Positions 7,483 through 48,990 of a stretch of 56,255 nucleotides of DNA are shown here, in pieces. Position 1 is the stretch's first letter. Each line of letters begins with the position of its first letter. The position numbers and the translations under genes were made by a program. The notes beneath the pieces were generated by a model that ran no database searches, was not told the origin of the DNA, and saw nothing but the letters and a program-made list of their open reading frames with translations. Where the stretch lies: contig JAGWBV010000032.1 of NCBI GenBank assembly GCA_021295715.1, positions 1 to 56,255 of the forward strand, in the 5' to 3' direction. The stretch comes from Candidatus Poribacteria bacterium. GTDB lineage: Bacteria; Poribacteria; WGA-4E; WGA-3G.

Positions 7483-7513
7483 CCGTCGGCAGTCAGCCGT
7501 CGGCAGTCAGTAG
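7481..7513. repeat. Heptanucleotide array
   Basis: Four consecutive 7-mers alternating AGCCGTC-type and GGCAGTC-type units start at the TAG stop codon of the preceding gene. The same degenerate AGTCAGC unit recurs at about 12130, 18515, 21478, 36725, 39850, 44815 and 48906. Confidence 0.6.
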
Positions 7514-13380: not shown

Positions 13381-15350
13381 TGGCAGATCTTTTGTATGTC
13401 ACGCGTCCATTTCGGATTTTGTGCGCAATCGTCTTACTGAGTGTCAGTGTCCAACTTGAAATTTCATCAGAAACGGTAGATGCTACGCAGAAAAAAAAAG
13501 CGGTTTTAGCAAATGAAGCGAGCATTGTACGCAGCCTCGTAATTGATGGAAACGAATCGTTCTCTGAACAGCAAATCCGTGTGCTAATGCGGACAGATGT
13601 CTGGAGTGTTTACGATGCAACCGTTTTGAAAGCAGACCTTGAGGCGATTACACGTTTTTATCGGGAGAACGGGTACCGTTTCGCGCGTGTGGATGAAGCG
13701 CAACTCTCTGTGAAGAAATTCGCGGATGGTGTTTATCTCGGCATTGAGGTTGACGAAGGTCGTGTCGGCAACATTATCGTAACTGGGAATATACAGACGA
13801 AAGAAGACGTTATCCGCCGAGAGCTCCTGTTTATGCAGGGCGATATCTATACTGAAGCAGATAGAGAGGAAAGTGAACAGATCCTCCGCCGCAAGACTTA
13901 TATTGGTGCCGCAAAGGTTGATGCCCAATGGGATGAACTGTCGGAATCCGTCACGATTCACGCCACTATTCGGGAACTTTTGTCCTTCCCATTTGGGGCG
14001 GATCTGAACCTAAACAACCAAAAAAGGTATTGGCTACTACAGTATCGAGATCCGAACATATTCGGCTCGGGTCAAAGCACCCTGTGGCGCTACGAAAGGA
14101 TTAGTGAAGTAGGGGAAAAGACGCGTAGCCTTGTGAGAGGAAGGTATAATAACCCGCGACTCTTCAAGTCGCATTGGAACTTTGATGGTGAGTATATCCA
14201 GAAACGTGAAGGCGATGCCTTGGTTGTGCTACTGGAACGTCCCCAATATACCTTGAAAAGTCGATGGAGTGCAAGTGTTCGTTTGTCTGAATCGGTTAAT
14301 CCGATATATTGGTATGAAAACGCGGAGAAAACCGATACGTTTGAACAAAATCTACAGGGAACCTTTGCAAACGTCCGGCGCTATTTCGGGGACCGACGCC
14401 AACAGAATTATATCGGGTTATGGGCAGCTTCACGACGTTCAAAATACGTACTTCTTGAAAAATCAAGCGGATCCGATGCAATGTTAGAGAACCGAGACCT
14501 AAAACGGATCGGATTCACCTTAGGTAGACAACGTATCGCATATCACAAAACCCGATTCCTCCGACGGATGGGGCAAGAGGAAAACTTTCTTATCGGTTCT
14601 CAATACGCGCTTTCTCTTGGATACGCTTCACCTTTATACGCCTCCGACCGGGCAGAATCTTACGCCGAACTGGCTTTGGTGTCCGGATGGATAAATGGAA
14701 GTAAGCTCTTTAACTTATCAACGTTGGCACTCAGCACGAACTTCACGAGTCGGATTGAACGTTCCATTCTCCAAGCGCAAACCTCTTGGTTTTATACAGA
14801 TGTATTCAACGCAGGTGATATTTATACACTTGAAACCGGTTTTAGAGAGAACGGTCTCTTCGATTTTCATCAGACGTTTGTCGTGCAGTTTAAAACGGAA
14901 ATGCAGTTTGGATGGACTGGACGCAGCCAAGTTCTCTTAGGAGCGTTCGATGGGTTACGCGGCTACGCCTATCGGCAGTTTAGTGGTGAAAAGATGATGT
15001 TGCTGAGCCTCGAAAGCCGAACGATATTCGGTGGAACGGTTTTCCGAAAAATAGATGAAGCACTGGCAGCGGTTGCAACATCTGTGGCGCGTCCCTTTAG
15101 CGACCGAAGCGTTCATCTCGGGGTTATGTTGAGCGGGGTCATATTTGCAGATGTTGGATACATCTGGAACGGCAAACACACCTTCAGTTTACTGAGACCC
15201 AAGCGAAGCGTTGGCTTTGGGTTGCGTGGAAGTCTCTCTCAGTTTAGTGGGACCGGTATTCTTCGAGTAGAATTCGCCTTCCCACTTGATCCACCCTTTT
15301 CCCCATCGTTTAGACCCCGGATTTTCTATGGTCAGGAGCGAACTTTTTAA
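13380..15350 (+). CDS. Omp85-family outer-membrane protein with POTRA domains (BamA/TamA-like)
   Basis: A 656-residue protein. After a signal-like hydrophobic N terminus, residues about 40-200 form two POTRA-like units: IVRSLVIDGNESFSEQQIRVLM, then FYRENGYRFARVDEAQLS, and VGNIIVTGNIQTKEDVIRRELLFMQGDIYTEAD. The last 430 residues are beta-strand rich with FGFGLRGSLS-type strands and end in RPRIFYGQERTF with the terminal Phe typical of outer-membrane barrels. Omp85 proteins insert or translocate proteins across the outer membrane. The start overlaps the VWA stop by 1 nt (TAATG) with GGAG 4 nt before it, so it is coupled to the VWA gene. It is shorter than BamA and probably a specialised paralogue. 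Confidence 0.8.
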   Translation: MADLLYVTRPFRILCAIVLLSVSVQLEISSETVDATQKKKAVLANEASIVRSLVIDGNESFSEQQIRVLMRTDVWSVYDATVLKADLEAITRFYRENGYRFARVDEAQLSVKKFADGVYLGIEVDEGRVGNIIVTGNIQTKEDVIRRELLFMQGDIYTEADREESEQILRRKTYIGAAKVDAQWDELSESVTIHATIRELLSFPFGADLNLNNQKRYWLLQYRDPNIFGSGQSTLWRYERISEVGEKTRSLVRGRYNNPRLFKSHWNFDGEYIQKREGDALVVLLERPQYTLKSRWSASVRLSESVNPIYWYENAEKTDTFEQNLQGTFANVRRYFGDRRQQNYIGLWAASRRSKYVLLEKSSGSDAMLENRDLKRIGFTLGRQRIAYHKTRFLRRMGQEENFLIGSQYALSLGYASPLYASDRAESYAELALVSGWINGSKLFNLSTLALSTNFTSRIERSILQAQTSWFYTDVFNAGDIYTLETGFRENGLFDFHQTFVVQFKTEMQFGWTGRSQVLLGAFDGLRGYAYRQFSGEKMMLLSLESRTIFGGTVFRKIDEALAAVATSVARPFSDRSVHLGVMLSGVIFADVGYIWNGKHTFSLLRPKRSVGFGLRGSLSQFSGTGILRVEFAFPLDPPFSPSFRPRIFYGQERTF

Positions 15351-17432: not shown

Positions 17433-18527
17433 TTAATCCGCTGCTTTTTGCAAATGGATGTTCCCGCCAGAGGTATGCAATTTCAGCAAGGGACCGCCGC
17501 CATTGATGCTACCTTTCAATCTATTTCTGGGAACCTTCCCCTGGATAATCGATGCCACCACAAAATCCGTTGAGACGCGTCCACCGCTGGTTTCCGCGTC
17601 TACGTCAATCGCAATATCTGGGATAAGCGTGACGGTTATTCCACCACCCGACGTGCGCAAACGACACGCCTCCTGGAGTTGTGTTTTCATAACGGCATGG
17701 ATGGAGCCTCCCGAAGTTTTGGCATTTACATCGCCACCGACGTTTTGTAACCTGATACCACCGCCAGAGGTCTGGACATCTGCCCCTCCACTGCACCTGG
17801 CAACCTTGATACTGCCGCCTGATGTCTTGCCCCAGATAGAACCCTGAATCTCACCGAAGCGAAGACTACCGCCAGAAGTTTGTGCTTGAACGTCACCCGC
17901 GACATCGACGACTTCGATACTACCCCCAGATGTTTTCAAATCGATTGGACTCCCACACGATGTGAGTTTGATGCTGCCACCGGAGGTCCGTCCCCACACC
18001 GTTCCTGTGATGTTCCCGAAACCTAAACTCCCACCCGAGGTATGTGCTCGAACCTTACCCTCAAGGTCACCGACTTTGATGCTACTGCTTTGGGTCGTCA
18101 AATCAACATTATAGTTTTTGGGGACCGTCACGTGGAAACGAATTTCCAAGCGATTCAGTATTTTTCGCCAACGTTCTCGTCCATGTTTGAACTTACTCTC
18201 AGTATGAACATCGGTATCCTCGGGCGAGAATGATACCTCAAAGTCAGCAAGTGCTTCTTTTGCCGATCGTTTCAAGGATTTTGCCGCTTTTGTGATCACG
18301 ATTTCAATCTCATCCTGTTCGGCGGTTTGGATTTCAATTGCTCCGAGTTCCGACGCAATTGTTAAACTTCCTCCAGCCTTGACGCTATATGTTCTTTCAA
18401 TCTTTTCCAAAATCGATTCCTCCGCCGTTAGAGACATGGATTGGCAACCAACACTATAGAATAGAAGTAATGTTGAGAAAAAATGGATAGCGCGATAAAC
18501 ACTTTTATCATTTTGGCTATCAGCCAT
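17433..18527 (-). CDS. DUF4097 beta-repeat lipoprotein
   Basis: A 364-residue probable lipoprotein: the hydrophobic stretch FFSTLLLFYSVGC ends in a lipobox-like Cys28. Residues about 35-130 contain IERTYSVKAGGSLTIASELGAIEIQT, the typical start of the DUF4097 family. The rest is a right-handed beta-repeat in which TSGGS/TSGGG recurs about ten times, roughly every 19-23 residues. The family is of unknown function and sits in the periplasm or at the envelope. An in-frame ATG at 18584 lies within a heptanucleotide repeat and would add 19 basic residues, so I chose 18527. This start is also in the repeat and lacks a ribosome binding site, so the N terminus may have been rebuilt by the insertion. 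The gene converges with the DUF6785 gene, 10 nt apart. Confidence 0.75.
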   Translation of the reverse strand: MADSQNDKSVYRAIHFFSTLLLFYSVGCQSMSLTAEESILEKIERTYSVKAGGSLTIASELGAIEIQTAEQDEIEIVITKAAKSLKRSAKEALADFEVSFSPEDTDVHTESKFKHGRERWRKILNRLEIRFHVTVPKNYNVDLTTQSSSIKVGDLEGKVRAHTSGGSLGFGNITGTVWGRTSGGSIKLTSCGSPIDLKTSGGSIEVVDVAGDVQAQTSGGSLRFGEIQGSIWGKTSGGSIKVARCSGGADVQTSGGGIRLQNVGGDVNAKTSGGSIHAVMKTQLQEACRLRTSGGGITVTLIPDIAIDVDAETSGGRVSTDFVVASIIQGKVPRNRLKGSINGGGPLLKLHTSGGNIHLQKAAD

Positions 18528-27088: not shown

Positions 27089-27109
27089 CACAACGGCTAA
27101 AGCCGTGTG
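27089..27109 (-). ncRNA. Right-end hairpin and likely 3' end of the omega (re)RNA of TnpB
   Basis: The 21-nt hairpin overlaps the tnpB stop codon (TAG at 27097-27099). In IS605 elements the guide RNA comes from the 3' end of tnpB and the right end, with the guide being the sequence just outside the IS. Here it would be read on the minus strand from about 27250 to 27050. The exact end and guide cannot be fixed from one copy. Confidence 0.4.
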
Positions 27110-28332
27110 CTTCTTTGCTTCCTCGTGGGAGGCTTACTTGATTTGAGTCCCGAAAACGGTGACCACTTATCAAGTCTACACAGGTCAGGATGATACCTGA
27201 TACCCGCGGGGGATACCACCGCCCCGACTACAGGGTTAAAAAGGAAACCCTGATACTTCGTCAGAATGTTACTCGCACCTACAACGTCTCTGTGTCCTTG
27301 CCACTCGCATTGGCGACAATGGTAAGTCCTTTGAGAAGGTTTCTTTCTATGTCCGCAGGAAGGGCAGGTTTGAGACGTATAGGCTTCGTCCTCTGTATCA
27401 ACGTTGATACCTACGGCTTTTGCTTTGTAGGTAATCATGTTCTGAATTTTAGAGAACGCCCACTGGTGTAACTTCTGATTGGACCTGTTGCCATAGTTGA
27501 TAGATCGTCTAATATGCTTTAGATCTCCAATGACAATCGTTTCTATCTTTCGCTCTCGGCAAGAAGAAACAAAGCGTGACGTGATTTTATGGCGCATATC
27601 ACGCAACTGCGCGGTTAACTTCTGTAGGGTTCTATTTTTGACGCGTTTGAGTTTTTTCCAGCGTCTGCTATATCTAATGCACCGCGATAAGGCTTTATTG
27701 AGACTCGACTTAAATTTGTTCTGATACCTAACAACACTGCGGATTTGCCTACCATTGTAGATTTCGGAATGGAGACCGTCAAAATAACGATTGGGTGGAT
27801 TTCGCCCATATCTACAGCAACTGCCGACCCTACTTTTGCTTTCGCCTTTTTCGGAGTTGTGTCGTATGTTGCATGAAACTCGTATTGTTTTGTTGTTCGA
27901 TTATACACGAGTGAGACTTCGGCAGGCACGACCTTATGGAACTTTTTATCGATCTTTATCCAAAGCGGGTCTTGGTCTAATCCCATAGAAAGTTGTAGTT
28001 TCCCACGCTTATAGGAAATGCCCGTTGCTCGCCATGTGAACGTGTGAAACTTCCGTGTTTTGTTTGGCGGTTTCGCGTTCGGATTCGATTTTCGGTTGGC
28101 AAAGAAAGAACGTCTTGCTCCACAATAGTCGTCTATAATTGCCTGAACGCTATGGGCATGGCACGGATACTTTTTGAATTTGAGATATGCCTTGAGTCCC
28201 CTGTCCGAAAGCCAAAAACCTTTCTGCTCATGCGTTTGGAACGCAAGCGAAACGGTTTTAGAATAGATACGTCCACCGAGGCGTGGAAGTCGCTAAAATA
28301 TAGGTTCGGTATTCTTTCTTGGATTTAGACAC
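27097..28332 (-). pseudogene. tnpB: tnpB with two frameshifts
   Basis: About 410 codons long, the usual TnpB length. A GTG at 28332 overlaps the tnpA stop by 8 nt and gives VSKSKKEYRTYIL. The frame then shifts near 28293, continues as RLPRLGGRIYSKT...KVGSAVAVDMGEIHP, and shifts again near 27785, continuing as FDGLHSEIYNGRQI to the stop at 27097. RuvC-I is AVDMG. The zinc finger is CPSC...CRQC, followed by HRDVVGASNIL with the RuvC-III Asp. RuvC-II reads IVIGDLKHI, with Gly where the usual IEDL glutamate stands. The two shifts make the gene non-functional as assembled; sequencing error cannot be excluded. Confidence 0.75.
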
Positions 28333-28738
28333 TCTTTTGATCCTCGATATATTCTTTGACGACTTTTAGAGATACACAGCCCACAGATGATATGAACTTT
28401 GAACGCGTCCAAAGGGAAGGTAAGCGGGATTTAAGGTGTGGGAACTCTTCTCTGAGTATCCGAGACGTATAACCTTTGATTAATCCCACGATCCGAGTAA
28501 TAGGCACTTTCGGATTGTTCTCAAGTATCAGGTGTACGTGGTCTTCCATAATCTCACTGGCACGCACTTTGAAATCTAATTCTGTTTGTTTGGAGCAGAT
28601 TAAATGGTGCAAACGCTCTTGGATAGACGCGTCTAAAACTTTGCGTCTGTATTTGGTACACCAGATAATGTGATATTGACAACTATAAACCATGTGGGTA
28701 TCTGAATACCAATCTTTTTCGGGGTTCTTGATAAACAT
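28325..28738 (-). CDS. tnpA: Y1 HUH transposase of the IS200/IS605 family
   Basis: A 137-residue single-strand transposase. The metal-binding HUH motif is H67-V-H69 in EDHVHLILE. The catalytic tyrosine is most likely Y130 in VVKEYIEDQ. The N-terminal MVYSCQYHIIWCTKYRRKVL is the family signature. The gene is complete, in contrast to the tnpB beside it. TnpA excises and inserts the element as single-stranded circles and could act on the copy here. Its stop overlaps the tnpB start. Confidence 0.9.
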   Translation of the reverse strand: MFIKNPEKDWYSDTHMVYSCQYHIIWCTKYRRKVLDASIQERLHHLICSKQTELDFKVRASEIMEDHVHLILENNPKVPITRIVGLIKGYTSRILREEFPHLKSRLPSLWTRSKFISSVGCVSLKVVKEYIEDQKSV

Positions 28739-29333: not shown

Positions 29334-32300
29334 CTACCAATTATTAGAATCAGAGGTAGGTTTCCACCAAGGGGCGATTCGAGGAGTTGAACCTACTGGA
29401 AGTTTCTCACCTCGACAGTAGTCGCTGAATTTTCTCCCAAAAACTTTGACATCACGTTTCGTCTCTGTAGAGTGTCCCCATCGGTACCAAAATCGGTAAT
29501 GGAGCGCAGCAAGTTTAGGGTCGATGTCTTGTGGGTCCTCACCAAATTCCTCTTTTTCGATTTTACGATGCCACCATTGGGCAATAGGTGATAGAGCAGG
29601 CTTGATTTGCTCAAAAACAGCGGAAATTCGGAAAGGATCGCGCGTCTGTAAGGCTTTCCGATAGACTTCTTGACAACTTCGTTCCTGTTGTGCCACTTCA
29701 TAAGCCCAAGTAGCGTGTTCACGCACCCATCGACTTGAATCATTTAATTTCAATCCTTCAAGTTTCTCAATCGCTTCGTCCGTTCCAAACCACGGCAAAA
29801 TCGAAATACCCAGATTACGTTCCTTTGCATAAGGGCTCGCTAAATACTTCTCGGTCACCAACTTCCATAACTCTTTCTCCCCTCCCCCAGCTAAAGAGGC
29901 AAGGGTCATGAACATAATTTCTTCGTCGTTTAGGCACTCTTCTAAAAGTTCACGTCTGAGTTGACGGTGTTCAGGCGAGTTACAATACTCAACTTTCCAG
30001 AGTTGAGCGAGAAATGTTTCTACCCCACCGTACGCCCAAAAAATTGTTGTACCGCCTTTTGCCTTTGATTGACGGTAATATCGCATTGCGGTAGTAGGTT
30101 GGAAGCGCAATAACAGGCAGAGGATGTTATCCATGAAGTCATACGAGCCTCGGCAATACCATCCCGATTTGGAAAGTAAGTCCAGATATTCGATTGCCAA
30201 TTGTGAGAAATCGGTGGTGTTGTATGTCGCCCAAGTCTGAAGAACTTCTCGGTTGACCGTGAACCGTAACTCCTCGGCAGAATCATGGTTTTTCTCATCA
30301 CCTTGAAGAATTGAACACATCTGAGTTATCAGTTCCCTGCCCCACCGCGACAGATCATCCGTCCGATCTAGTGAGCAGAGAAAGGAACCCACAATTTCTA
30401 TTGGTAGCAATGGGACGAGTGTCTCATAGGACGGAACATCCTTACCTTCATAAATAGGAACTGTCAGCCTTCTGCTATTCTCGTGAAAAAGATGTTTTCT
30501 TATTTCCTTACTATTCAAAATTTCATCCAAGAACCGTTTTGGATCTGATAATGCCGACAACATCAATATGAATGTTCCAGCAGTTAAATCAGGTTTCCTC
30601 AGCTTTAACTCTTTCAACGCCCATGTTACTAACTCCTCATCAGTTTGATTTCCAAAGGCATAAAGGACCCTCCAATACTCTTGCTCTGGCAATTTTTTTG
30701 ACCCTTCGTTAGACATAGACCCATCATTAGTTGTTCCCGGATCAAGTGTTTCCAACTTTTGTTGTGCCAACTCTACAATTGGCTTCGGTAACAACTCCTC
30801 CAGTAAATATGGTAGCGGTTCATAACAAATTGATCTCCTAAGTGCTTCATGTGAAGATAGAAATTCAAACCAGTCTGTCAATACTTCCTCAGAGGCAGAA
30901 AAAAGAAGGGTTTCTGTCAGTAAGGAAGTCAAATGAATGGCATCGAATGATGAATTATCCGTTTGAGCATCTTGAACGAGACGCTGCTTCATTCCTAAAA
31001 TTGCTTCCATGATTCTTACGTTATCTTCCGGTTTAAAAACAAGTCCGTGAATTGACCGAAGTTTAAATTGTGCCCATTTTTGATTCAGAGTATTAAGTTT
31101 GAGATGGCAGGCAAGTTCTGCATAACTTTCAGGATCATACTTAGCAACCCACGGCAGTAGATTTTCTATACAAAAATCCTCAAGGGTCGCCCCCACACTC
31201 GATCCCAATTTAGCAGTTACTGATACATCTTGCAAAATCTTCTTGATTTCAACGATATCCTCATGGTGCCAATCAGGCAAATCTGTCCGAACCGCTAAAT
31301 AGTCGAGTCCGTGGTAATTACCGTTGGCTGCGGGTGAATCACCTATTAGTAAACGTTCCTGATTACGGATGCGATCAATATAAGGCTTAAAACGACGATT
31401 GTGTTGTTCTATAAAGGCATGTGTCTCTAATTCTTTCTTTGAGAGTGGACGTTGCAACAACGGCGGTAAATTCACAAGTAGACAATCCGCCAACCCGTAA
31501 ACCCCTCTTAATAATGATGCATCAGCTTGGGCTAATTCTGCTAACCAATGCAAATTACCTAAAACTTCCTCAGTGTATCCCCATCTCATCAATTTACCAA
31601 TTTCCTCAAAAAATCGTGTTCCTCTATTAAAGTTATCGTCAACATTTGCCTTGCTATGCAGGGTTGCGTAGCAACGTGTGAGTGTTTTTAAAAATTGACG
31701 CTCTGGTCTTTGAGATAAAATTGAGATTGCCGCGTCTAATAATCGGGATTGTATGTCATCCTTTTCCCGAGGAGACCGCTTCCCCTCGGTATGTGTATAA
31801 ACAACGTCTTCCGGTATATCATCAGTGTATATAGGCAGAAGCCATTTGGTAAGGCGCGATGCCAAACGATTAAGATCACCTTTCTTGTTTAACCAAGTTT
31901 TCGCCAGCGGGGCAATGAGGGCATCTTCATAATTTGGGGAATTGTGATACTCTAATTCAAATTCAACGACTTGTGCATAAGCATCCGGGTCTTTTTCTGC
32001 CCAAAACAATAGTCGTTCATCTGTAATTTGTGCATTGTGACTATGGAACCAAGCAAGCATCAAAGCAGCTCGTTTTTGCGACAATTGTTCTTGTGAAAGG
32101 TCAGTATTTGGAAATATAGCAGATAACTGTAGCGCGGCAAACAGTGCCTCTGTTCTCAGATCTTCTGAAAGAATTGGCTCAAGTTCTTGCTGAAAATGCT
32201 CAAGTAAATCTTCAATTCTGGTAAACTTTGTGTTATCAAAAAGGTGAGAGAGGTAAAGGGTCCAGCAAAGTAAAACATAATCAGCACTCAACTTTGCGTC

Positions 32301-34052
32301 AAATAGACCTGCTTTGCTTACAATGCGTTGTTCTTCTAAATCGCGCCTGATTTTGGAGTAGTCGGAAAAACACCCTTTAAGCAGTTGTCCAAGTTTCTCT
32401 GGTGCGGCATCAATTTTGTCCCATGCTATTTGTTTTGCGAGATTTGAAAAAAAATCTTTAGGATCTTCAGGACGAATCCAATCAAGTTTTTGTTTAATCT
32501 GTTGGTCAGAGCGCTTAATTTTGTCAGTTAAATCTGCCAATAAAACCATTTCCGGAGTGACGACAGCAAATGAACCAAGTTCATCTCGCAATTCAAGGCA
32601 TCTCTGAAAATATCGTGGAATTCTTGCAGTGTCTTTTAATGAATTTGGTAAGTCATCGGGTTGGAGTCCGTTTAGGATTAGCATCTTCTGTAGTTCGGAA
32701 TCATTAAAATGGTCAACAGGAATTTCATGGCATCGGCTCCACCAATCAGGATAGTCATTCAAAGGACGCGTAGTTAACAAAAAACGGACTCTACTTCCCC
32801 ACTCGTTCTCGTGCCTAAAGTATTCCGAGAGTATCCGATCTGCTGTCTCAAGGGCATCCCTTTCATTGACACCATCAAGTACAATAAGGGTTTTACGCCA
32901 GATTTTTGCAGGCTTGTTTTGCAGTTTAACGATTTTCCCTTGTTCGTAAGATGGATAGATTAAACTAAAACACGTGTAAAGCAAATCAAATATAGACTTG
33001 TGTCCTTTCCAGTCTTTACTATCTAACCAAAAAGCGACAATATTCTCGTTCTGACAGATCGAGTTCATCGCCTTGGCGGCAAGCCACGATTTTCCGTGTC
33101 CTTCCTTACCTTCAAGATAGCAGACAGGCTGCCCCGATGCCTCCCACCAATCTTTGATTTTTGATCCCAGCAGAGACCTTTCTATTGCTTGGGGTAAGTT
33201 GATAGGATTGAAACCTTTGTTTGTGCTAAAACGCTTAAGCAGGTATCTTTCAATGTCTTCTTGAACATGTTTTTGAGTTTGGATTCCATCTTTGAGCTTG
33301 TCTCGGAGTTCAGATGTTTTCTTGGTCGTTTCTAACTTATCCTTCTCTATTCCAACCCAGGCCAAGAATTGTTGACTGGTGTCTGAAAGGTCAAAGAATT
33401 CGTTGATGTCCTCCCAAAGGGTAACGCACAACGCTCCAAGTTCTGACAGATTATCCGTCAGTTCAAGAGTAACAATATCCAAGCCGGTTTCTTCTGAGAC
33501 AGCCTCCAATTCACCAAGCGACTGTGCAGAAATATCACGAGAAATAACCAAGACATAAACTTGAAGGTCTTGTAAATTTCTCTTTACTATATTAATGTCT
33601 CCCACAATTTCTACATCTCTAGGCTTTTTTCCGTCGCTGTAGTTCTTGGCTTGAATTGCTACTTCTCCTGTCATGTTCCTAGCGTCGCCACTTGGTTGAG
33701 TGCCGGATTTTGCGAGCACAAACGGAATTTCAAGAAGTAATTCTAGTAGCCTTGCAGCGAGTTCTTCAAAAGGCTCGCCTTTTTTGCGTCCTTTGTGTTG
33801 TTCGTCCAGTGATTGGATGAGTTCTTTTAGTTTTCTCCAACCTTGTTCTGCCGAAAGCGGGTCGCTCTGATCAACTGCTTCACTCTCGTCTGATGACAGA
33901 TTCTGACGTGATTTAAGATTAACCTGAACTTCCACCTCGAGGGTTTCGTCCCAATAATCAGAAAGGCTGTGCGTATCCCAAAATTCGCCTATCTCCTCTG
34001 GTGTTGCCTCGGGAGGGGGCATTGGATCTCGTTTTTTATCTTTGTCTTCCAT
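29334..34052 (-). CDS. Antitoxin-like/Mrr nuclease/STAND (NACHT) NTPase fusion, Avs-like defence protein
   Basis: A 1572-residue multidomain protein. Residues about 15-50 (EEIGEFWDTHSLSDYWDETLEVEVQVNLKSR) match the C-terminal part of BrnA/CopG-like antitoxins, which normally stand alone beside BrnT. Residues about 93-200 form an Mrr-like restriction nuclease: FEELAARLLELL, D123 in SGDAR, then the QxK motif Q134-A-K136. Residues about 285-480 are a STAND/NACHT ATPase: Walker A GKEGHGKS (315-322), Walker B LIVLDGVNE (389-397) and the sensor arginine LLTTRP. About 1000 residues of helical repeats follow, the position of the ligand sensor in Avs/NLR proteins. The start overlaps the BrnT-like gene by 17 nt. 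The gene is AT-richer than its neighbours and lies next to an IS, suggesting transfer. Anti-phage function is inferred. Confidence 0.8.
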   Translation of the reverse strand: MEDKDKKRDPMPPPEATPEEIGEFWDTHSLSDYWDETLEVEVQVNLKSRQNLSSDESEAVDQSDPLSAEQGWRKLKELIQSLDEQHKGRKKGEPFEELAARLLELLLEIPFVLAKSGTQPSGDARNMTGEVAIQAKNYSDGKKPRDVEIVGDINIVKRNLQDLQVYVLVISRDISAQSLGELEAVSEETGLDIVTLELTDNLSELGALCVTLWEDINEFFDLSDTSQQFLAWVGIEKDKLETTKKTSELRDKLKDGIQTQKHVQEDIERYLLKRFSTNKGFNPINLPQAIERSLLGSKIKDWWEASGQPVCYLEGKEGHGKSWLAAKAMNSICQNENIVAFWLDSKDWKGHKSIFDLLYTCFSLIYPSYEQGKIVKLQNKPAKIWRKTLIVLDGVNERDALETADRILSEYFRHENEWGSRVRFLLTTRPLNDYPDWWSRCHEIPVDHFNDSELQKMLILNGLQPDDLPNSLKDTARIPRYFQRCLELRDELGSFAVVTPEMVLLADLTDKIKRSDQQIKQKLDWIRPEDPKDFFSNLAKQIAWDKIDAAPEKLGQLLKGCFSDYSKIRRDLEEQRIVSKAGLFDAKLSADYVLLCWTLYLSHLFDNTKFTRIEDLLEHFQQELEPILSEDLRTEALFAALQLSAIFPNTDLSQEQLSQKRAALMLAWFHSHNAQITDERLLFWAEKDPDAYAQVVEFELEYHNSPNYEDALIAPLAKTWLNKKGDLNRLASRLTKWLLPIYTDDIPEDVVYTHTEGKRSPREKDDIQSRLLDAAISILSQRPERQFLKTLTRCYATLHSKANVDDNFNRGTRFFEEIGKLMRWGYTEEVLGNLHWLAELAQADASLLRGVYGLADCLLVNLPPLLQRPLSKKELETHAFIEQHNRRFKPYIDRIRNQERLLIGDSPAANGNYHGLDYLAVRTDLPDWHHEDIVEIKKILQDVSVTAKLGSSVGATLEDFCIENLLPWVAKYDPESYAELACHLKLNTLNQKWAQFKLRSIHGLVFKPEDNVRIMEAILGMKQRLVQDAQTDNSSFDAIHLTSLLTETLLFSASEEVLTDWFEFLSSHEALRRSICYEPLPYLLEELLPKPIVELAQQKLETLDPGTTNDGSMSNEGSKKLPEQEYWRVLYAFGNQTDEELVTWALKELKLRKPDLTAGTFILMLSALSDPKRFLDEILNSKEIRKHLFHENSRRLTVPIYEGKDVPSYETLVPLLPIEIVGSFLCSLDRTDDLSRWGRELITQMCSILQGDEKNHDSAEELRFTVNREVLQTWATYNTTDFSQLAIEYLDLLSKSGWYCRGSYDFMDNILCLLLRFQPTTAMRYYRQSKAKGGTTIFWAYGGVETFLAQLWKVEYCNSPEHRQLRRELLEECLNDEEIMFMTLASLAGGGEKELWKLVTEKYLASPYAKERNLGISILPWFGTDEAIEKLEGLKLNDSSRWVREHATWAYEVAQQERSCQEVYRKALQTRDPFRISAVFEQIKPALSPIAQWWHRKIEKEEFGEDPQDIDPKLAALHYRFWYRWGHSTETKRDVKVFGRKFSDYCRGEKLPVGSTPRIAPWWKPTSDSNNW

Positions 34053-36724: not shown

Positions 36725-36826
36725 TGGTTATCAGCCGTCGGTTATCGGCTATCAGTAAAGAGGTTTTTGGTAAAGGGCCCCTCTTGCTGACTGCCGACTG
36801 CTGACTGCTGACCGCTATTTTCAATG
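36725..36826. repeat. Heptanucleotide composite repeat
   Basis: GTTATCAGCCGTCGGTTATC at the left, AAAGAGG and CCCCTCTT in the centre, and GACTGCCGACTGCTGACTGC at the right. The units are 7 nt long and degenerate. It is the best-preserved intergenic copy. Confidence 0.65.
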
Positions 36827-36868: not shown

Positions 36869-37981
36869 TTACGCCAAAAATGGCAGAAGCACGACTTTAC
36901 CATCAACAGATCCTTCTAATGTTTCAATTCGGACACGACTATCTGCTGCAGTAACTTCCATCCGAACGTAACCGAGAGCAACCGATTTTCCGAGGGTCGG
37001 TGCAAAGGTAGCACTCGTAATCCAACCAACCTCTTTGTCCCCGTTAAAGACTCGCGCACCCAAAAAATCCTTATGGCTGTTTTGTGATGTTAAGTTTGCA
37101 TCAATTTCAATACCGCGCAAGAGGCGGTTTGGATGTCCTCGGTACTTCATACGCGCGACAATCTCCTGCCCAATATAACACCCCTTTTCAAAATCGATAG
37201 CGTGTTCTAATTCCGCCTCAAGCGGGATAACAGAATCTGTCAATTCTGCTGCATATCTCGGTACGCCTACTTCGATACGGAGCGACTCAAGGGCATTCCA
37301 ACCGATCGGTTGAACGTCAAAGCGCGTCCCTTCAGTCATCAATATCTCCCAAAGCGAAACTAATGCCTCGGCAGTGGTATAAAGCGTCCAACCTATCTCG
37401 CCAGTGCCATCTGTTCTCACACAGACAATTGCGTGTTCAAAAAGCGCGTCTGCTTCACGAAAGCAGTTATGCCCTTCTGGCAGCGTAGCAAGTTCGTTTA
37501 TATCAAGCACAGATTGAATAAGATCCGTCGATTTTGGACCGTGGACAGCAATCGCCCCGGTTTCAGCGGTTACATCAGAAAGCTCAACATCGTCAGCGAT
37601 GATGTACTTATCCAATTCGTTGAAGAGGTTGTCTGTTGTCTCAGGCGCGGTGTCAATACTGATTGCGTCCTCAAGAACGGAGATGTTCATGTCGGCTATA
37701 ATTTTGCCGCGATGTGTTAAGATCGTGGCGTAAGTCCCCTGACCAATCGAGAGGCTTTCGACATCGTTGGAGATGATACGATGTAAAAATTTCGCCCGAT
37801 CCTCGCCGATTAACCGATACCGGCCTCGGTAGGACACGTCAGCAATACCGACATTGTTTCTGACAGCATGATGTTCAGAAATAGCATCAGTGAACTCGGT
37901 CGCGATATTCCAATCCAAATGCTTTTTCTCGAATGCCGCATCGAGTTGTTCATGGATGGTATAGAGTGGTGTTGTTTTCAT
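36869..37981 (-). CDS. YgfZ/GcvT family folate-binding protein
   Basis: A 370-residue protein with the tetrahydrofolate-binding fold of aminomethyltransferases. The motif KGCYIGQEIVARMKYRG near residue 267 is the K-G-C-x-G-Q-E signature of YgfZ, which supports Fe-S cluster repair in E. coli and binds folate. The N terminus (DAISEHHAVRNNVGIADVSYRGRYRLIGEDRAKFLHRIISNDV) is GcvT-like. It is not a glycine-cleavage T protein, because the other gcv genes are absent. The start is 18 nt after the AAGG of leader repeat copy 11, six more than in the other copies, because of an A/T-rich extension. Confidence 0.8.
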   Translation of the reverse strand: MKTTPLYTIHEQLDAAFEKKHLDWNIATEFTDAISEHHAVRNNVGIADVSYRGRYRLIGEDRAKFLHRIISNDVESLSIGQGTYATILTHRGKIIADMNISVLEDAISIDTAPETTDNLFNELDKYIIADDVELSDVTAETGAIAVHGPKSTDLIQSVLDINELATLPEGHNCFREADALFEHAIVCVRTDGTGEIGWTLYTTAEALVSLWEILMTEGTRFDVQPIGWNALESLRIEVGVPRYAAELTDSVIPLEAELEHAIDFEKGCYIGQEIVARMKYRGHPNRLLRGIEIDANLTSQNSHKDFLGARVFNGDKEVGWITSATFAPTLGKSVALGYVRMEVTAADSRVRIETLEGSVDGKVVLLPFLA

Positions 37982-38109: not shown

Positions 38110-41100
38110 TTAGAACATGCGATCCAAGCGCAAAATGATGATCGGATTTCGTAAGGAGAAAGATGAATTCAGTGGTTCTGCTACCTCAAGCGCAAGGCTC
38201 CATGGTGGCGGATTTCCGAACGGATCCCAAAAAACGGAGCATCCAATCCCAACAGACGTCTTCAACCGTGTCATAAAATTTTCAAAATCAGAAAATGGGG
38301 CATCGTCATACCACCATATACTACCCGCATCCAAGAAGCAACTGAGTGTCCACCCAAGGACACCATCTTGTTCGTTGGGAATTGTTTCTTTGATGAGCCG
38401 ATACTCAAGGTTAAGTAGGAGCCGATTATCCCCGGCGAATACATTAGAATCGTGACCGCGCACGGTATTACCACCCCCAAGGTGAAGGAGCCGTTGCCTT
38501 GGCAAGGGAGCATCAGAAAAATCACCTGCAATCCGAATATTCAGATGGTGTGAGCCGGACAAAGGTGTGTAGCGTGTCAACTCAAACCGATAGAAATTGA
38601 AGGCGTGGTCCCCACCGAAACTGTTCCCTGCTATCTCAACGGCGAAGTGTCCGCGCCATCCGCGTCGGGTCCGCTCATTTGCGGAAAACAGCGTGTGGAA
38701 ATGTCGTGTGGTCGTCGATCTGTGGTCTCGTGTATCAAACGCATAAACGAGAGAAAGACTTCTCAATTGTCCACGATTAATGCGTGAGTTTCCCCGCTTA
38801 ATCAGATTTCGGTTTAAGTAACTCCAATCCGTAGATTTGGAAAGGTTGTCGTGCCTTTCCCCAGTGAATTCCAGTCTAAGATACGACCATTCTGATGGCG
38901 CATAGGTTATCCATCCCTGAGACCCCTGACGTTGATAATAATCTTGAAATGCTGAACCATAATAGGAGGCACTCAGGCTGGCATTACCTTGATGTAGATA
39001 GAGATTAGAACTGACATCGGTGAGCTTATAGAAACTCCCTCCAAATTTGAGCATCTGCCTCTTAAAAAACCCTTTCTCAATACCGGCATGGTAGTTCCAT
39101 ATTTTGCTCGAAAATCCACGACTTATTGAACCGAAAACCTGTTCTTTACCCGTGAGGCGCGTCGAGAGTGTCCCACCCGCACCAAGCATTAATCCGTGAA
39201 CACGATTGAATTGAAGAATCGGGAAACCACCCGGTCTCGCGAACGGCTGCTCTTCAATGTCAACAATCATGACGTTTTTTCCACCCTCACGTTGAACATG
39301 CCAATTCCGAACCGATTTGAAATGCTCACTGTTTTTGCTGAGCTCCCGACGCATACCGTTTATCTTTGATTGACCGAGCGCATGATGGTAAATTTCTGGG
39401 GCTTGTGAATCTCCTACTCCATCACTATTTCCAGTGCTTAGGTTAAGTGCTGACAACAGTTCCGCTCGTGGGATTCGACTGTTTCCAGTGAAACGAATCT
39501 CGTGCAGGGTTCCCTCGTCAATGCTAAATTCCAAGACATCGTTGTCAAGTCGATGTGTGACAGTGGCGAATTCATAACCACGATTTACGTAAAAATCAGC
39601 AATTAATCGTTGCTTCAATCTAACAATGGTAGCGGCAAAATAGCCGGATTCTAAATGAAACCACTCCTTGATGAATCGTGAAGGGAAACTCCTGTTCCCT
39701 TCAATCTTAATTTGCTGAGCGAAAAGCACAGGGGCTTCCGTGACTCGAATATGCAAACTGACACTTGGAACGGAATCGGTTGGAAGGTTGGAAGAAGGGA
39801 AGGTTGGGTCCCCTTCCTCATCTTCCAGTCTTCCACCCTTTCGCTCTTCCATTCCAGTCTCTTGCTGATTGCTGACCGCTGATTGCTGACCGCTGTTGGC
39901 TTCTTCACTATCCCTCTCCACCTGCCGAGTTTCCAAACGCACATCTTGAAACCAATCCTGTTCCCTCAACTCTGCGATGAGCCAAGAAAGTTGCGGACTT
40001 GTGATAACATCTTCAGGCTGAATGGGAAGGGATTGTTGAACGACTTCTGTCGGAATAGTGGTATTCCCCTTGATTTCAAGGGTCGCAACCCGGATCTTAG
40101 TTTCGGATGCGAAGTCTGTAGAAGCGAGTGGTAGCGTAATGAATTCCAAAAGCCCCATTGCTGAACCATAACGTCCGGCAAGTGGGCCTGTATACTCTTG
40201 TGGCGAATGCGGCCACCACGGACGCTCGGTATCGTAAATTGGCAGCCAATAACTATATTCTCTGGATGTGGCAGGAATAAGACTCGCTATATTGCTACTA
40301 TGCATCTTACGATGGATGTTAAAAAGCCACTTGTTTTCAAAAGAGAGAGTTGACTGCGGATCCATTTTTGGTGAAGGTTCCAACATTTTACGCGGAAGAG
40401 CAATCTCAAGGCTCCAAAAAGTAGCGTTAATTTGACTTCCAACTTTTGCATTTGAATCCCACGCGCTGTCCGCCTTGAACGCCGTTTGCATCGTTTTTCG
40501 ATTTAAAGTGAGTTGGACATCATGCGGCGCGAACTGGAAACTCGGTTCTCCAGGCGTGTTGACCTGCTGGTCAAAATACGCGCGAATCGGGTTAATAACA
40601 AGGTGATAGTAAACATCAGTTTTCGGATTCGGATCAATCAGGATTTCAATACACTCGTCTTCCCAAATTGGTGAATCATGCTGGGTCTGTGAAATATACG
40701 GAAGCAGCGAATCGGACATGTACGCCTTTACACCGACATAGAAATTCTCGGTATCCCACAATAAAAAAGTTTCAGTTGAATTGCTTGGAACATCGGTGCC
40801 ATCTGGGTTTTGGAACGGAGAGAGTCGCGCAGCGGATTGCCACGCGATTTCAGATAAATTTCCATCAATAGTGGGCGGTTCTGCTGCGTGCGGGACGGGT
40901 TGAGCGAAATCTATGGTGAGATCCGTTTCAGCATCTGCGGATGTATTGCCGCCGCTTGTTGATCTCGGTAGGAGGGAAATCGCGTTGGTGGCTTTCAACC
41001 GAAACAGCGGTCCGCCATCGTTAATAATGGTCAGCCCCGTTTCGTCGTCAAATTGTGCGGGCAAATTAACAACGATCTGCTGTTTCTCACTCTCAAGTTC

Positions 41101-41925
41101 AATATCCGCGGCATAATTTTCGGGAAGTCGTAAACGGATGCTACCGCCTTGTGCGGTTATATCCATCGGTGTGGCAACAGGGTCAAGGACCACCAGTCCA
41201 ATTGAGCCATTCTGGGTCTCCAACTTGTTTTCTCCGTGGGTCAACAAAATTTTTCCGTCAATGTTGCCCTTGGTGACACGGATGTTATAATTGCCTAAGG
41301 TTTCATTTAAATGGATGTTCCCCGTCTCCGTTGAGGCTTCTATCTTTCCACGGATACGCTGAAGAGATATATCTCCGGTTTTGGCATAGAGCTTAACAGA
41401 AACATCCGGTGGCGTTTTGATTGTACATTTCAGTTGGAGTCCATCATAGCGCACTTCTTGTAATGCTATCGTGTTGGAAAGCGAGTTCGGCTGTGTTTCA
41501 GCGGACGTGTCCGGTAGTTGTATCCTTAACTGGAGTGTGTCATTGCTTTGCGTTCCTGTAAAGGTGATGTTATCAAGATAGTCTCGGATCAGATCGTCCT
41601 GTTGTGTATTTGTGGTTTCCCGTGCCTGCTTCTCAAGTGTAACGGTGATGACCTCGTCTTCTGTGGCAATCAGTTCGATATTACCCGATATATTCAAGCT
41701 GAGTTCTATATGATAAACATCTGCAAAACTGAAGGTTTTTGTTGACGCTGCCCCCACTATCAATGTCTGGGTTTCACGAATTGAATCGTTGACGGGTGGA
41801 GGCGGTGTGCTTCCTTCGCCTTCATGATCCGCCGCGTATGTATGCTGGACTGGTAAATTCAGCGTGAGCATGAAAAAATAAAATAGATATGAGTAAGAGA
41901 AAATCGTGCGAGATATGGGCAACAT
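38110..41925 (-). CDS. Chimeric outer-membrane protein: DUF4097-like, CBM9-like and Omp85 domains
   Basis: A 1271-residue exported protein. The signal peptide is FSYSYLFYFFMLTLNLPVQHTYA. Residues about 40-330 are a DUF4097-type beta repeat (GKIEASTETGNIHLNETLGNYNIRVTKGNIDGKILLTHGENKLETQNGSIGL). Residues about 345-560 are a CBM9-like domain (PPTIDGNLSEIAWQSAARLSPF, WEDECIEILIDPNPKTDVYYHLV). Residues about 610-840 contain POTRA-like repeats. The last 370 are an Omp85 barrel ending in IIILRLDRMF. Between the POTRAs (about residues 680-730) lies a low-complexity segment encoded by an inserted repeat. ATG 41925 has AAGGA upstream; a GTG at 42006 with a promoter 7 nt before it is the alternative. 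I have not seen this architecture described. Confidence 0.75.
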   Translation of the reverse strand: MLPISRTIFSYSYLFYFFMLTLNLPVQHTYAADHEGEGSTPPPPVNDSIRETQTLIVGAASTKTFSFADVYHIELSLNISGNIELIATEDEVITVTLEKQARETTNTQQDDLIRDYLDNITFTGTQSNDTLQLRIQLPDTSAETQPNSLSNTIALQEVRYDGLQLKCTIKTPPDVSVKLYAKTGDISLQRIRGKIEASTETGNIHLNETLGNYNIRVTKGNIDGKILLTHGENKLETQNGSIGLVVLDPVATPMDITAQGGSIRLRLPENYAADIELESEKQQIVVNLPAQFDDETGLTIINDGGPLFRLKATNAISLLPRSTSGGNTSADAETDLTIDFAQPVPHAAEPPTIDGNLSEIAWQSAARLSPFQNPDGTDVPSNSTETFLLWDTENFYVGVKAYMSDSLLPYISQTQHDSPIWEDECIEILIDPNPKTDVYYHLVINPIRAYFDQQVNTPGEPSFQFAPHDVQLTLNRKTMQTAFKADSAWDSNAKVGSQINATFWSLEIALPRKMLEPSPKMDPQSTLSFENKWLFNIHRKMHSSNIASLIPATSREYSYWLPIYDTERPWWPHSPQEYTGPLAGRYGSAMGLLEFITLPLASTDFASETKIRVATLEIKGNTTIPTEVVQQSLPIQPEDVITSPQLSWLIAELREQDWFQDVRLETRQVERDSEEANSGQQSAVSNQQETGMEERKGGRLEDEEGDPTFPSSNLPTDSVPSVSLHIRVTEAPVLFAQQIKIEGNRSFPSRFIKEWFHLESGYFAATIVRLKQRLIADFYVNRGYEFATVTHRLDNDVLEFSIDEGTLHEIRFTGNSRIPRAELLSALNLSTGNSDGVGDSQAPEIYHHALGQSKINGMRRELSKNSEHFKSVRNWHVQREGGKNVMIVDIEEQPFARPGGFPILQFNRVHGLMLGAGGTLSTRLTGKEQVFGSISRGFSSKIWNYHAGIEKGFFKRQMLKFGGSFYKLTDVSSNLYLHQGNASLSASYYGSAFQDYYQRQGSQGWITYAPSEWSYLRLEFTGERHDNLSKSTDWSYLNRNLIKRGNSRINRGQLRSLSLVYAFDTRDHRSTTTRHFHTLFSANERTRRGWRGHFAVEIAGNSFGGDHAFNFYRFELTRYTPLSGSHHLNIRIAGDFSDAPLPRQRLLHLGGGNTVRGHDSNVFAGDNRLLLNLEYRLIKETIPNEQDGVLGWTLSCFLDAGSIWWYDDAPFSDFENFMTRLKTSVGIGCSVFWDPFGNPPPWSLALEVAEPLNSSFSLRNPIIILRLDRMF
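39768..39902. repeat. Composite repeat inserted in frame in the Omp85 chimera
   Basis: GGTTGGAAGGTTGGAAGAAG at the left and TTGCTGATTGCTGACCGCTG at the right. The same bipartite element, with TTGGAAGG units then CTTCTTCCAGTTCC and heptanucleotide units, lies in the unrelated GT39 gene at 44715-44868. Confidence 0.65.
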
Positions 41926-42013
41926 TCCGGGGAGGTTCCTTTTAATCCGGGATATATGACAATGCAATATCGGTTTGTAAACCCTGACTACAGAATTGCT
42001 TGACACATTTTAA

Positions 42014-43977: not shown

Positions 43978-45789
43978 TCACGGCATTATTGCATCGAGAC
44001 GGCGATAGACGCGGAGTTCTGGATGCGCAAGGGCGCGCATCGGAAACGGGGCACCGTTATCGGATATCATTTCGATGCCTAAGAACTTTGGTGCGCATCG
44101 GAATATTTTGTACAACTCATACGGACTTCCGTCCCCTAAAACCTGCGTATAGAACGCAAGTGTCTCCGCTAATTCAATCTCGCTGAGAGGGTACCAGTCC
44201 TCATCTCGATAACGTTGAGGCGCTTTTTCGTATTTGCGGAACACTTCATAATCCGGCATAACGATAAGTACCCATTTTACCTTTTCATCTGTCACACTGA
44301 AGTCTAACGCAGGGAGAAGCCAGTCGAATAGGATCTCTGGCGCGACAGCAACAGGTTCCTCTGGCGGAATGTGCGTGGTTATCCAGTTCGATGCTGCAAT
44401 CTTCGTTGGCTGCGAGAGCAGGATGGAGGCAAACGAGAGGGTATAAACCAATGAGTAAAGCACTACAACACCCCCCACGACTGTTCCAAACCATTTCCCA
44501 AATGTATTAAGCTCTTCAGTGGAACATGGAAAATTCACGCGCGCGCGCGGGTGTCCCAACGCTAACAGAGTTGCCACAATGCTCGGAAAACGTGTGAGCG
44601 TGGCAGCTCCCAGGACAGTGAGTGCCGGATAGAGTATCAGGAGGTGGCGGGCGAACTTAACTTTATGTATCCCGATAAATAGGAGATACGGAATGATGAA
44701 AGATAGTAAGAGGATGGATTGGAAGGTTGGAAGACTGGAAGATTCTTGGTTGGAAGGTTGGAAGGTTGAATGGTTGGGATCCCCATCCTTTCCTTCTTCC
44801 CTTCTTCCAGTTCCTTGCTGACTGCTATTCTTTCCCACTGCCGATTGCCGATTGCCGACCGCTTTAAGCGACACGAGCGCACACAAAACCCCCAAACTGA
44901 CGAGGAGCGCAAGCGGTAGACCCATGCCCCATTTCAAGAGCGTCCAGAGATAGGTAAGCCGATGTAGCAATCCAGAGTCCGCTGTAGCGATGAGACCGAA
45001 GTGTCCATGGTGATAATGAGTGGCTTCATACCAGAAATCCTCAAAGAAGAGATGCCACTCTGGTGAAATCAGGTCGATGAGCCAATAAGGGCAGAGGAGT
45101 GTAAAGGTTAATACGGAAATACCAATGGTTGTTGCGAATTTTTTATAAAATCCCTCACTCCTAATGAAGACCAACAAAGAGAAACCTACAAAGACGGTTG
45201 TAAATTTGACGGCGAAACCGGTTCCCGCGATGACACCGAGCCATACCGCAGTTTGAAATGTAGGCGCGACTGAAGAAGATCGCACACGTATCACGAGATA
45301 GAGAAACAAAGTCACACAGAAAGTCGCGGGGATGTCAACAAGTGCAAAACGCGATTCATTCGTGGCATGTAACATCGCGACAGCGAGCAATCCTACGGCA
45401 ATCTGACCTATACGTTTATTGTAACAGTGAACGCCAATGCGATAGGTGAACCAAAGTGTTGCCGTGGATAGCAGAACGTTGATACAGCGTGCCAGTAGGA
45501 TTACGTGGGCTTCCGTTAGCTGCAAACCGACAAGCGACAGTAATTTACCTATCCCAGCAATACTGTAAAACCATGCTGTTCCGGGCCAGTTATAGATTTG
45601 AGGTGGAGCTGTGAAGTGGATAAGGTTCAGCACATCTCGTGCGATGAGCACTTCACGTGGGTCAGGAGAATCAGGTAAGCCGATGTTTATCCCGATAAGT
45701 CGGAAACCGAAGCCGCTGATGAGGATCGCAGGTATAACAAAACGACTCGGGGAACGGAAATAGTTTGTCACCGCGAGAGGCACTCTCAT
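43978..45789 (-). CDS. Glycosyltransferase family 39-like (PMT-type) membrane protein
   Basis: A 603-residue protein with about 11 membrane segments. The first luminal loop holds the acidic PDSPDPREVLIARD motif, and TAWFYSIAGIGKLL and NESRFALVDIPATFCVTLFLYLV follow, as in ArnT/PMT-type transferases that use lipid-linked sugars. The C-terminal third is soluble (PEEPVAVAPEILFDWLLPAL...). Residues about 307-358 (GNRQSAVGKNSSQQGTGRRE...) are encoded by a composite repeat and form a hydrophilic linker between two membrane helices. The ATG follows the stop of the GNAT gene by 2 nt, so it is part of the same transcript. Confidence 0.75.
   Translation of the reverse strand: MRVPLAVTNYFRSPSRFVIPAILISGFGFRLIGINIGLPDSPDPREVLIARDVLNLIHFTAPPQIYNWPGTAWFYSIAGIGKLLSLVGLQLTEAHVILLARCINVLLSTATLWFTYRIGVHCYNKRIGQIAVGLLAVAMLHATNESRFALVDIPATFCVTLFLYLVIRVRSSSVAPTFQTAVWLGVIAGTGFAVKFTTVFVGFSLLVFIRSEGFYKKFATTIGISVLTFTLLCPYWLIDLISPEWHLFFEDFWYEATHYHHGHFGLIATADSGLLHRLTYLWTLLKWGMGLPLALLVSLGVLCALVSLKAVGNRQSAVGKNSSQQGTGRREEGKDGDPNHSTFQPSNQESSSLPTFQSILLLSFIIPYLLFIGIHKVKFARHLLILYPALTVLGAATLTRFPSIVATLLALGHPRARVNFPCSTEELNTFGKWFGTVVGGVVVLYSLVYTLSFASILLSQPTKIAASNWITTHIPPEEPVAVAPEILFDWLLPALDFSVTDEKVKWVLIVMPDYEVFRKYEKAPQRYRDEDWYPLSEIELAETLAFYTQVLGDGSPYELYKIFRCAPKFLGIEMISDNGAPFPMRALAHPELRVYRRLDAIMP
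44715..44868. repeat. Composite repeat inserted in frame in the GT39 gene
   Basis: GGATTGGAAGGTTGGAAGAC units at the left, CTTCTTCCAGTTCC in the middle, and CCGATTGCCGATTGCCGACC at the right. It shares its layout with 39768-39902. It leaves the frame open in the minus direction. Confidence 0.65.
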
Positions 45790-48906: not shown

Positions 48907-48990
48907 TGGCGGTCAGCGGTCAGCAGTCAGCAGTCAGAAAGAGATTGTTTCTGCTGATAGCCAACTATTGAAAGTTGATAGCCATAAATG
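48906..48990. repeat. Heptanucleotide array after aroB
   Basis: GGCGGTCAGCGGTCAGCAGT and another AGCAGTC unit, then AAAGAGA and an inverted GCTGATAGCC/GTTGATAGCC part. It begins at the aroB stop codon. Confidence 0.6.

Follow-up and report, generated by a model that had tools for sequence, protein, structure and literature searches.

What protein is encoded at positions 38110..41925 (minus strand) of a contig from an uncultured member of the Poribacteria (Candidatus Poribacteria bacterium, assembly GCA_021295715.1, contig JAGWBV010000032.1), and what could its combination of modules be for? The contig was analysed as a stretch of 56,255 nucleotides, referred to below as the window. The analysis confirmed that the gene encodes one four-module protein of 1271 amino acids (aa), in which a signal-peptide-like N-terminus is followed by a toastrack domain, a carbohydrate-binding module of family 9 (CBM9), three POTRA domains and an Omp85-type beta-barrel. 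An earlier interpretation of the bare letters (the sequence-only reading) had proposed one exported polypeptide combining a beta-repeat, a carbohydrate-binding module and an Omp85 barrel, and this was borne out by Pfam, by the LiaG profile and by fold comparison; the POTRA that it had also seen is present, yet as three domains rather than one, according to Pfam and the model of a relative (L095). The arrangement is best read as an Omp85 barrel that bears periplasmic modules.

All the features of the gene lie on the minus strand. The reading frame is open from a GTG at 42006 to 38110, and a AAAAGGAA-type ribosome site lies just 5' of the Met at 41925, where the alignment of close relatives also begins. 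Residues 1-31 (41833..41925), read directly from the sequence, resemble a signal peptide ending in HTYA, with a cleavage site placed by eye. The product looks exported and, as this segment contains no lipobox Cys, is not a lipoprotein.

The toastrack domain, of the DUF4097/LiaG type, covers residues 56-299 (41029..41760). In the Pfam scan of the protein, DUF4097 (PF13349) matched residues 72-280 with an E value of 1.4e-4 and 21.7 bits, just under the cut-off of 22.9, and in the Pfam search of the genome the same gene scored 24.0 bits, above the cut-off; LiaG of NCBIfam matched residues 59-295 (E 6e-8, under the model's own cut-off). An AlphaFold2 model of residues 45-735, based on a 30-row alignment (mean predicted local distance difference test, pLDDT, 72.8), was compared with solved structures, and its first part resembled known toastracks (3lyc, Z 13.2, root-mean-square deviation (rmsd) 3.4, 196 residues aligned; 3pet, Z 13.1; 4qrk, Z 13.0). 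The LiaG match and the fold comparison thus support the sub-cut-off DUF4097 match, and residues 56-299 are predicted to adopt the toastrack fold.

The CBM9-fold domain occupies residues 340-599 (40129..40908). Pfam CBM9_1 (PF06452) matched residues 353-441 (E 9e-7, 29.4 bits against a cut-off of 23.4), and the model resembled 7nwn (Z 18.9, rmsd 2.6, 179 aligned) and 1i82 (Z 18.4); in a full-length model of L095 the same domain matched 4jpq (Z 19.8) and 7nwn (Z 19.7). Structure prediction, which the sequence-only reading had proposed as a check, spoke in its favour, since the modelled front matches CBM9s as well as toastracks (the latter with Z about 13).

POTRA1, one loop of which is expanded, spans residues 607-732 (39730..40107); its Pfam POTRA_1 match is weak, and the model superimposed on a BamA POTRA with Z 10.9 and rmsd 1.5 over 69 residues. 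POTRA2 (residues 735-805, 39511..39723) was matched by Pfam POTRA above the cut-off (residues 738-805, E 5e-14), and POTRA3 (residues 806-895, 39241..39510) was placed on the model of L095, whose three POTRAs align with POTRA1-3 of BamA (2qdf, Z 13.2). The Omp85-type barrel, assigned by Pfam and by the tree described below, runs from near FNRVHG to the terminal Phe (residues 896-1271, 38113..39240). Pfam Omp85 (PF01103) matched residues 990-1228 (E 2.4e-7, 31 bits against a cut-off of 24), and ShlB gave a weaker match (25.7 bits, cut-off 22.7). The barrel contains VRGH (38452..38463; LRGY in most relatives) and FLDAG (38323..38337), the loop-6 RG and FxDxG motifs of Omp85 proteins. The model of L095 had a mean pLDDT of 68.4 and a predicted template modelling (pTM) score of 0.46, with the barrel, for which 16 strands would be expected in this superfamily, below pLDDT 50 over long stretches; given this low confidence, no reading of domain packing is drawn from it.

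Is this fusion a peculiarity of one genome? The best eight candidates per genome were scored in 84 genomes of Poribacteria; 73 of these encode the chimera, toastrack through barrel, as one frame, 68 securely and five with a weakly supported CBM9 (G050, G051, G054, G057 and G059). All but G050, which showed two matches in one frame, gave a single match (72 genomes); that of G053 stops at a contig end, short of the C-terminus. In the five weak cases the CBM9 part rests on a profile match, and the Pfam scan, which covered four of these proteins (all but L067 of G054), gave CBM9 below the cut-off in L157 and did not report it in L158, L061 and L066. Contig ends cut the chimera in three further genomes (G013, G049 and G082), and the full form is absent from eight of the 84 (G037, G040, G042, G047, G055, G056, G058 and G067). 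It occurs in several single-contig assemblies and, with strong domain matches, in families f9 and f10, which lie outside the class of the window; here Pfam reported all four modules in L155, and CBM9, POTRA and Omp85, with DUF4097 unreported, in L156. These counts, like those of neighbouring genes and of the DUF4252-CBM9-barrel below, were tallied by hand.

A separate scan of named genomes used two CBM9 peptide patterns, relatives without these patterns being outside its reach. The 37 named loci with the whole protein were all poribacterial (L070-L106; L080, L089 and L101 are partial), and 19 loci of other organisms matched mainly in the CBM9 part. Outside the Poribacteria, coverage extended to 17 genomes of several groups and to 132 genomes of the phylum of G090, a group that includes L113 (Zixiibacteriota) and G084 (Calditrichota). 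In none of the 132, at E values up to 1e-50 and with the best five candidates scored per genome, were the front modules joined to a barrel; all eight matches fell on barrels, and seven of these had frames of 571-608 aa. Among the matches listed for the 17 genomes none joined a toastrack to a barrel: toastracks were found in frames of 282-391 aa, the highest-scoring barrels had frames of 558-602 aa, and weaker barrel matches lay in longer frames. A chance fusion or an assembly artefact in one genome is practically ruled out by the 73 genomes and the 37 named loci; the four-module fusion is real and conserved across almost all Poribacteria.

The search for CBM9-Omp85 fusions suggested by the sequence-only reading was thus productive, and it brought to light a second type, the DUF4252-CBM9-barrel. 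As to whether the architecture is a common and already described one, it is common inside one phylum, and no description was found in a literature search that left subscription papers mostly outside, so that its absence from print is unproven. With the same coverage, no paper was found pairing DUF4097 with POTRA or CBM9 with POTRA, and the one co-mention of Poribacteria and POTRA was in a Pseudovibrio genomics paper.

Over 30 rows, the toastrack has a mean pairwise identity of 0.48 and the CBM9 one of 0.53, while the POTRA stretches reach 0.49, 0.50 and 0.57 and the barrel reaches 0.54; the toastrack and the CBM9 are thus about as conserved as the POTRAs and the barrel, which indicates that they are under selection. 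The variable insert of POTRA1 (residues 671-720, 39766..39915) reaches only 0.14 and carries copies of a short repeat found throughout the genome, which has enlarged a loop of this domain. The repeat, a tandem array of GTCAGCA/GTCAGCG-like 7-base units, was counted 12 times in the window against 0.09 expected, and further sites occur in the genome; copies lie at 39864-39892 and 36786-36814 (minus strand) and at 7483-7504, 48910-48938 and 12929-12943 (plus strand). The copy at 39864, within the POTRA1 loop, is translated as SGQQSAVSNQQ.

According to the available part of PMC8280721, the aromatic clamp of TmCBM9-2 is formed by Trp71 and Trp175, and a CBM9 without the clamp residues bound none of the natural sugars tested. 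In the alignment W421 (codon 40663..40665) coincides with the sugar-stacking Trp71 of the Thermotoga CBM9-2, and W570-W571 (40213..40218) holds, judged by position, the candidate counterpart of Trp175. W421 is Trp in 29 of 30 relatives, W570 and W571 in all 30. In more distant members W421 is lost (L061, L066 and L067). The W570/W571 site has disappeared from L066, L067 and L060, the last of which keeps W421, and a single Trp of it is left in L059 and in L061. These residues make sugar binding by the CBM9 of the order-level family plausible; since both clamp positions are eroded in the remotest members, it is probably not universal across the whole family. The sequence-only reading, by which the periplasmic modules may sort or bind glycan or glycoprotein cargo for the barrel, is to this extent partly supported.

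It is quite possible that the CBM9 is structural only, or binds another ligand, and has no role with sugars, which would be compatible with any of the functional readings below. The loss of W421 in three distant members and of W570/W571 in L060 fits this, as does the failure of the clamp-less CBM9 mentioned above to bind natural sugars. Ethylbenzene dehydrogenase also has a subunit with the CBM9 fold (2ivf, Z 12.9), one that binds haem; this subunit scores well below the true CBM9 structures (18.9), and this, with the near-invariance of the three Trp residues in nearer relatives, speaks for a sugar-type module.

Where did the modules come from? Two trees were built on hand-picked rows, 38 for the barrel (leaving aside the 577-aa frame of L151) and 36 for the CBM9, the rows L053 to L158 standing for their families. 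In the barrel tree, the chimera clade comprised 17 rows (support 90/91), with short toastrack-barrels inside a starred clade of nine (99/97), and the DUF4252 forms made up a clade of their own (eight rows, 99/97). Related barrels carry other fronts: a toastrack only in L062 and L065 (and in L064, by alignment), DUF4252 in L063 and L068, and DUF4252 with POTRA in L004. The nearest barrels in other phyla (L131:1501-3237, minus strand, and L132:412-2148, plus strand) follow a bactofilin-like solenoid, seen as weak Bactofilin matches in these two and by sequence in L127, and no POTRA was found in them. The DUF4252-CBM9-barrel (L152:3039-5582, minus strand) is a second CBM9-Omp85 chimera of the Poribacteria, with no POTRA found by Pfam; of the 81 genomes searched, 22 have it intact (18 with a single match, four with two matches in one frame), and in G025 one stop interrupts it. 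The barrel lineage therefore carries exchangeable N-terminal fronts, namely toastrack, DUF4252, DUF4252-CBM9, DUF4252-POTRA and bactofilin-like solenoid.

In the CBM9 tree, the CBM9s of the DUF4252 chimeras fell among those of DUF5916 proteins (13 rows, 96/98), and that of the window chimera in a different starred clade (eight rows, 96/87), with which the weak CBM9s of L061, L060 and the f5 rows did not group firmly. Two separate CBM9 clades on one barrel lineage indicate that, judged by these sequences, CBM9 was most likely recruited at least twice. The short toastrack-barrels were considered as an ancestral state and rejected, since they branch within the chimera clade of the tree; family f3 has more probably lost its CBM9 and POTRAs, although the inner branches are weak and this order is uncertain.

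Could the chimera be the general assembly machine of its outer membrane? TIGR03303, the BamA equivalog profile, found seven Omp85-type genes in the genome: BamA on contig C38 (406 bits), one each on C39, C35, C51 and C99, one in the window at 13380-15350, and the chimera itself, which scored 66.1 bits against a cut-off of 297 and was discarded as the genome's BamA. A TamB match (C35:9146-9796) lies in the frame directly before the Omp85 frame of C35; none was found in the neighbourhood of the chimera in this genome, and a role as TamA counterpart was rejected as well. With BamA on C38 and TamB beside another Omp85 gene, the chimera is neither BamA nor the TamB-linked Omp85, and it would be a third, dedicated machine. 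As for the other Omp85-type gene of the window (plus strand, POTRA E 2e-21), which the sequence-only reading had overlooked, it directly follows a BatA/VWA gene (11062-13380), and a further protein of this genome combines Peptidase_MA, a PD40 propeller and an Omp85 barrel (L148:1275-4490, plus strand).

We tentatively favour the view that the chimera is a specialised factor for assembly or translocation at the outer membrane, its periplasmic modules serving for docking. By analogy with BamA-like paralogues, the chimera would insert or export a particular set of envelope proteins: the three POTRAs would receive unfolded clients and hand them to the barrel, the toastrack would offer flat sheets on which proteins could dock, and the CBM9 would hold the arm to, or select, a glycan-bearing partner such as a glycosylated client, an envelope polysaccharide or peptidoglycan. 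Three POTRAs matching POTRA1-3 of BamA and the retained RG and FxDxG motifs favour this proposal, as do the occurrence in 73 of 84 genomes, the conservation of the front modules and of the clamp Trp, and the presence of BamA and of the TamB-linked Omp85 as separate genes, and assembly factors are what the available part of PMC4104836 proposes extra BamA-like copies to be. The position of the arm in the periplasm, the handling of clients and the binding of a glycan or partner are what we infer. A narrower version, in which the CBM9 recognises sugar on envelope clients or partners and thereby determines which proteins pass through the POTRAs and barrel for insertion or export, seems to us unlikely.

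Several observations weigh against an assembly factor. No conserved cargo or partner gene was found in the neighbourhoods of the named loci, the TIGR03303 score is far under its cut-off, and the barrel model is of low confidence. Moreover, Pfam found no POTRA in the close toastrack-, DUF4252-, DUF4252-CBM9- and solenoid-barrels, so that client handling by POTRAs is not a common trait of the lineage. PlpD shows, according to the available part of PMC11116518, that an Omp85 protein fused to a periplasmic domain may function in another way.

PlpD leads to the main rival, which we regard as a reasonable possibility: the barrel would merely anchor the folded toastrack and CBM9 on the periplasmic side of the outer membrane, where they would serve as tether or sensor for glycans or envelope stress, and would insert no other proteins. 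A folded N-terminal front, rather than POTRAs, is what the barrel lineage shares, and the short toastrack-barrels nested in the chimera clade do without CBM9 and POTRAs altogether; in the available parts of the sources, PlpD is a homodimer whose fused domain stays in the periplasm (PMC11116518), and toastracks are linked to envelope stress (PMC11237479). A mere anchor, however, would not need the three well-conserved POTRAs of the full-length family, and no signalling gene recurs beside the chimera. The order passenger-POTRA-barrel, as described for patatin-Omp85 proteins in the text available, also recalls the old type Vd idea, by which the toastrack-CBM9 would be a passenger displayed through the barrel and binding host or matrix glycans. 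Poribacteria are dominant in marine sponges (PMC3909097, in part), where a surface sugar binder would be useful; yet the prototype PlpD keeps its passenger in the periplasm, three POTRAs separate the passenger from the barrel, and the gene is phylum-wide, not patchy like a typical adhesin, so that surface display is improbable.

No functional partner emerged from the gene neighbourhood. The most recurrent neighbour is a GcvT-like gene (36869..37981, minus strand), present in 28 of the 37 named loci, with three loci cut by contig ends and six without it. Beyond genus and family it alone recurs, in family f2, and the neighbourhoods otherwise differ; it is probably not a functional partner. No conserved large TpsA-like cargo gene, as expected in two-partner secretion, was found beside the chimera.

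The sequence-only reading had pointed to two related genes in the window, for a CBM9/DUF5916 barrel at 2690 and a DUF4097 lipoprotein at 17433, and had suggested that all three share a role in surface assembly. Pfam finds DUF4097 in this genome only at 17433 and in the chimera (the lipoprotein has further paralogues). The CBM9 of 2690 belongs to another clade than that of the chimera; CBM9/DUF5916 genes are multi-copy in this genome, 2690 being one of many paralogues, and its presence is thus no special coincidence. In five genomes of the genus (G005, G010, G018, G022 and G029), where a single contig covers the region, an orthologue of 2690 lies about 24-51 kilobases from the chimera; in G044 it is distant, and G081 has none. 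Close orthologues of the lipoprotein occur in G022 and G005, and in pieces in G018, and none was found in G010, G029 and G081, all carriers of the chimera. A three-gene unit was therefore rejected and the shared role is unsupported: the closeness of the genes is genus-level synteny.

A PMT_2-type glycosyltransferase gene (43978-45789, minus strand) belongs to the same genus-level neighbourhood. The stretch 27097-28738 (minus strand) encodes an IS200-type transposase (Y1_Tnp, at 28325) and, at 27097, a C-terminal piece of TnpB/Cas12f-like type; relatives of 27097 and 27615 sit elsewhere in L104, so that this region is probably a mobile, decayed element of the IS200/IS605 type. A 1572-aa protein with NPHP3_N/NACHT matches is encoded at 29334-34052 (minus strand), and PADLOC gave no match on it.

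How does the chimera compare with known systems? None of the ten Omp85 subfamilies of Heinz and Lithgow (2014; PMC4104836), as far as that source was available, carries a toastrack or a CBM9. The BamA-like subfamily described there resembles the chimera in having one to three POTRAs and a barrel beside a true BamA, but lacks a toastrack or CBM9 in front. The chimera adds a further Omp85 architecture beside the ten catalogued subfamilies, near-universal in the searched genomes of a phylum of uncultured bacteria. PlpD and the patatin-Omp85 proteins (PMC11116518, in part) likewise place an extra folded domain before POTRA and barrel; PlpD, however, has one POTRA and a patatin domain, whereas the chimera has three POTRAs, and neither of its two extra domains is known as an enzyme. 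Pfam found no patatin domain in the chimera, the toastrack and CBM9 taking that place, and no patatin-Omp85 protein was among the fold matches listed, which excludes nothing. DUF5686 (PF18939) partly matches the barrel of relatives of the chimera and of the solenoid-barrels of other phyla; it gave no match in the window protein (E up to 1) or in the genome (E up to 1e-4), and the DUF5686 rows differ from the chimera in forming a separate clade of the barrel tree (five rows, 99/99).

The toastrack fold is common to the chimera and to the LiaG/DUF4097 proteins of PMC11237479, where, in the part available, the toastrack is argued to be intracellular. That of the chimera, unlike those, comes after an export signal in one polypeptide with an outer-membrane barrel; the chimera family is an exception to the published reading and places a toastrack outside the cytoplasm. 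With the CBM9s of xylanases (1i82, 7nwn) the chimera shares the fold and at least one clamp Trp, but its CBM9 is not attached to a glycosidase; if it does bind sugar there, glycans would be linked to outer-membrane assembly. The nearest parallel, the DUF4252-CBM9-barrel, carries a CBM9 on the same barrel lineage and differs in having no toastrack, no POTRA that could be found and a CBM9 of another clade. Side by side, the two chimeras illustrate the exchange of N-terminal fronts on one barrel lineage, with CBM9 most likely joined to it more than once.

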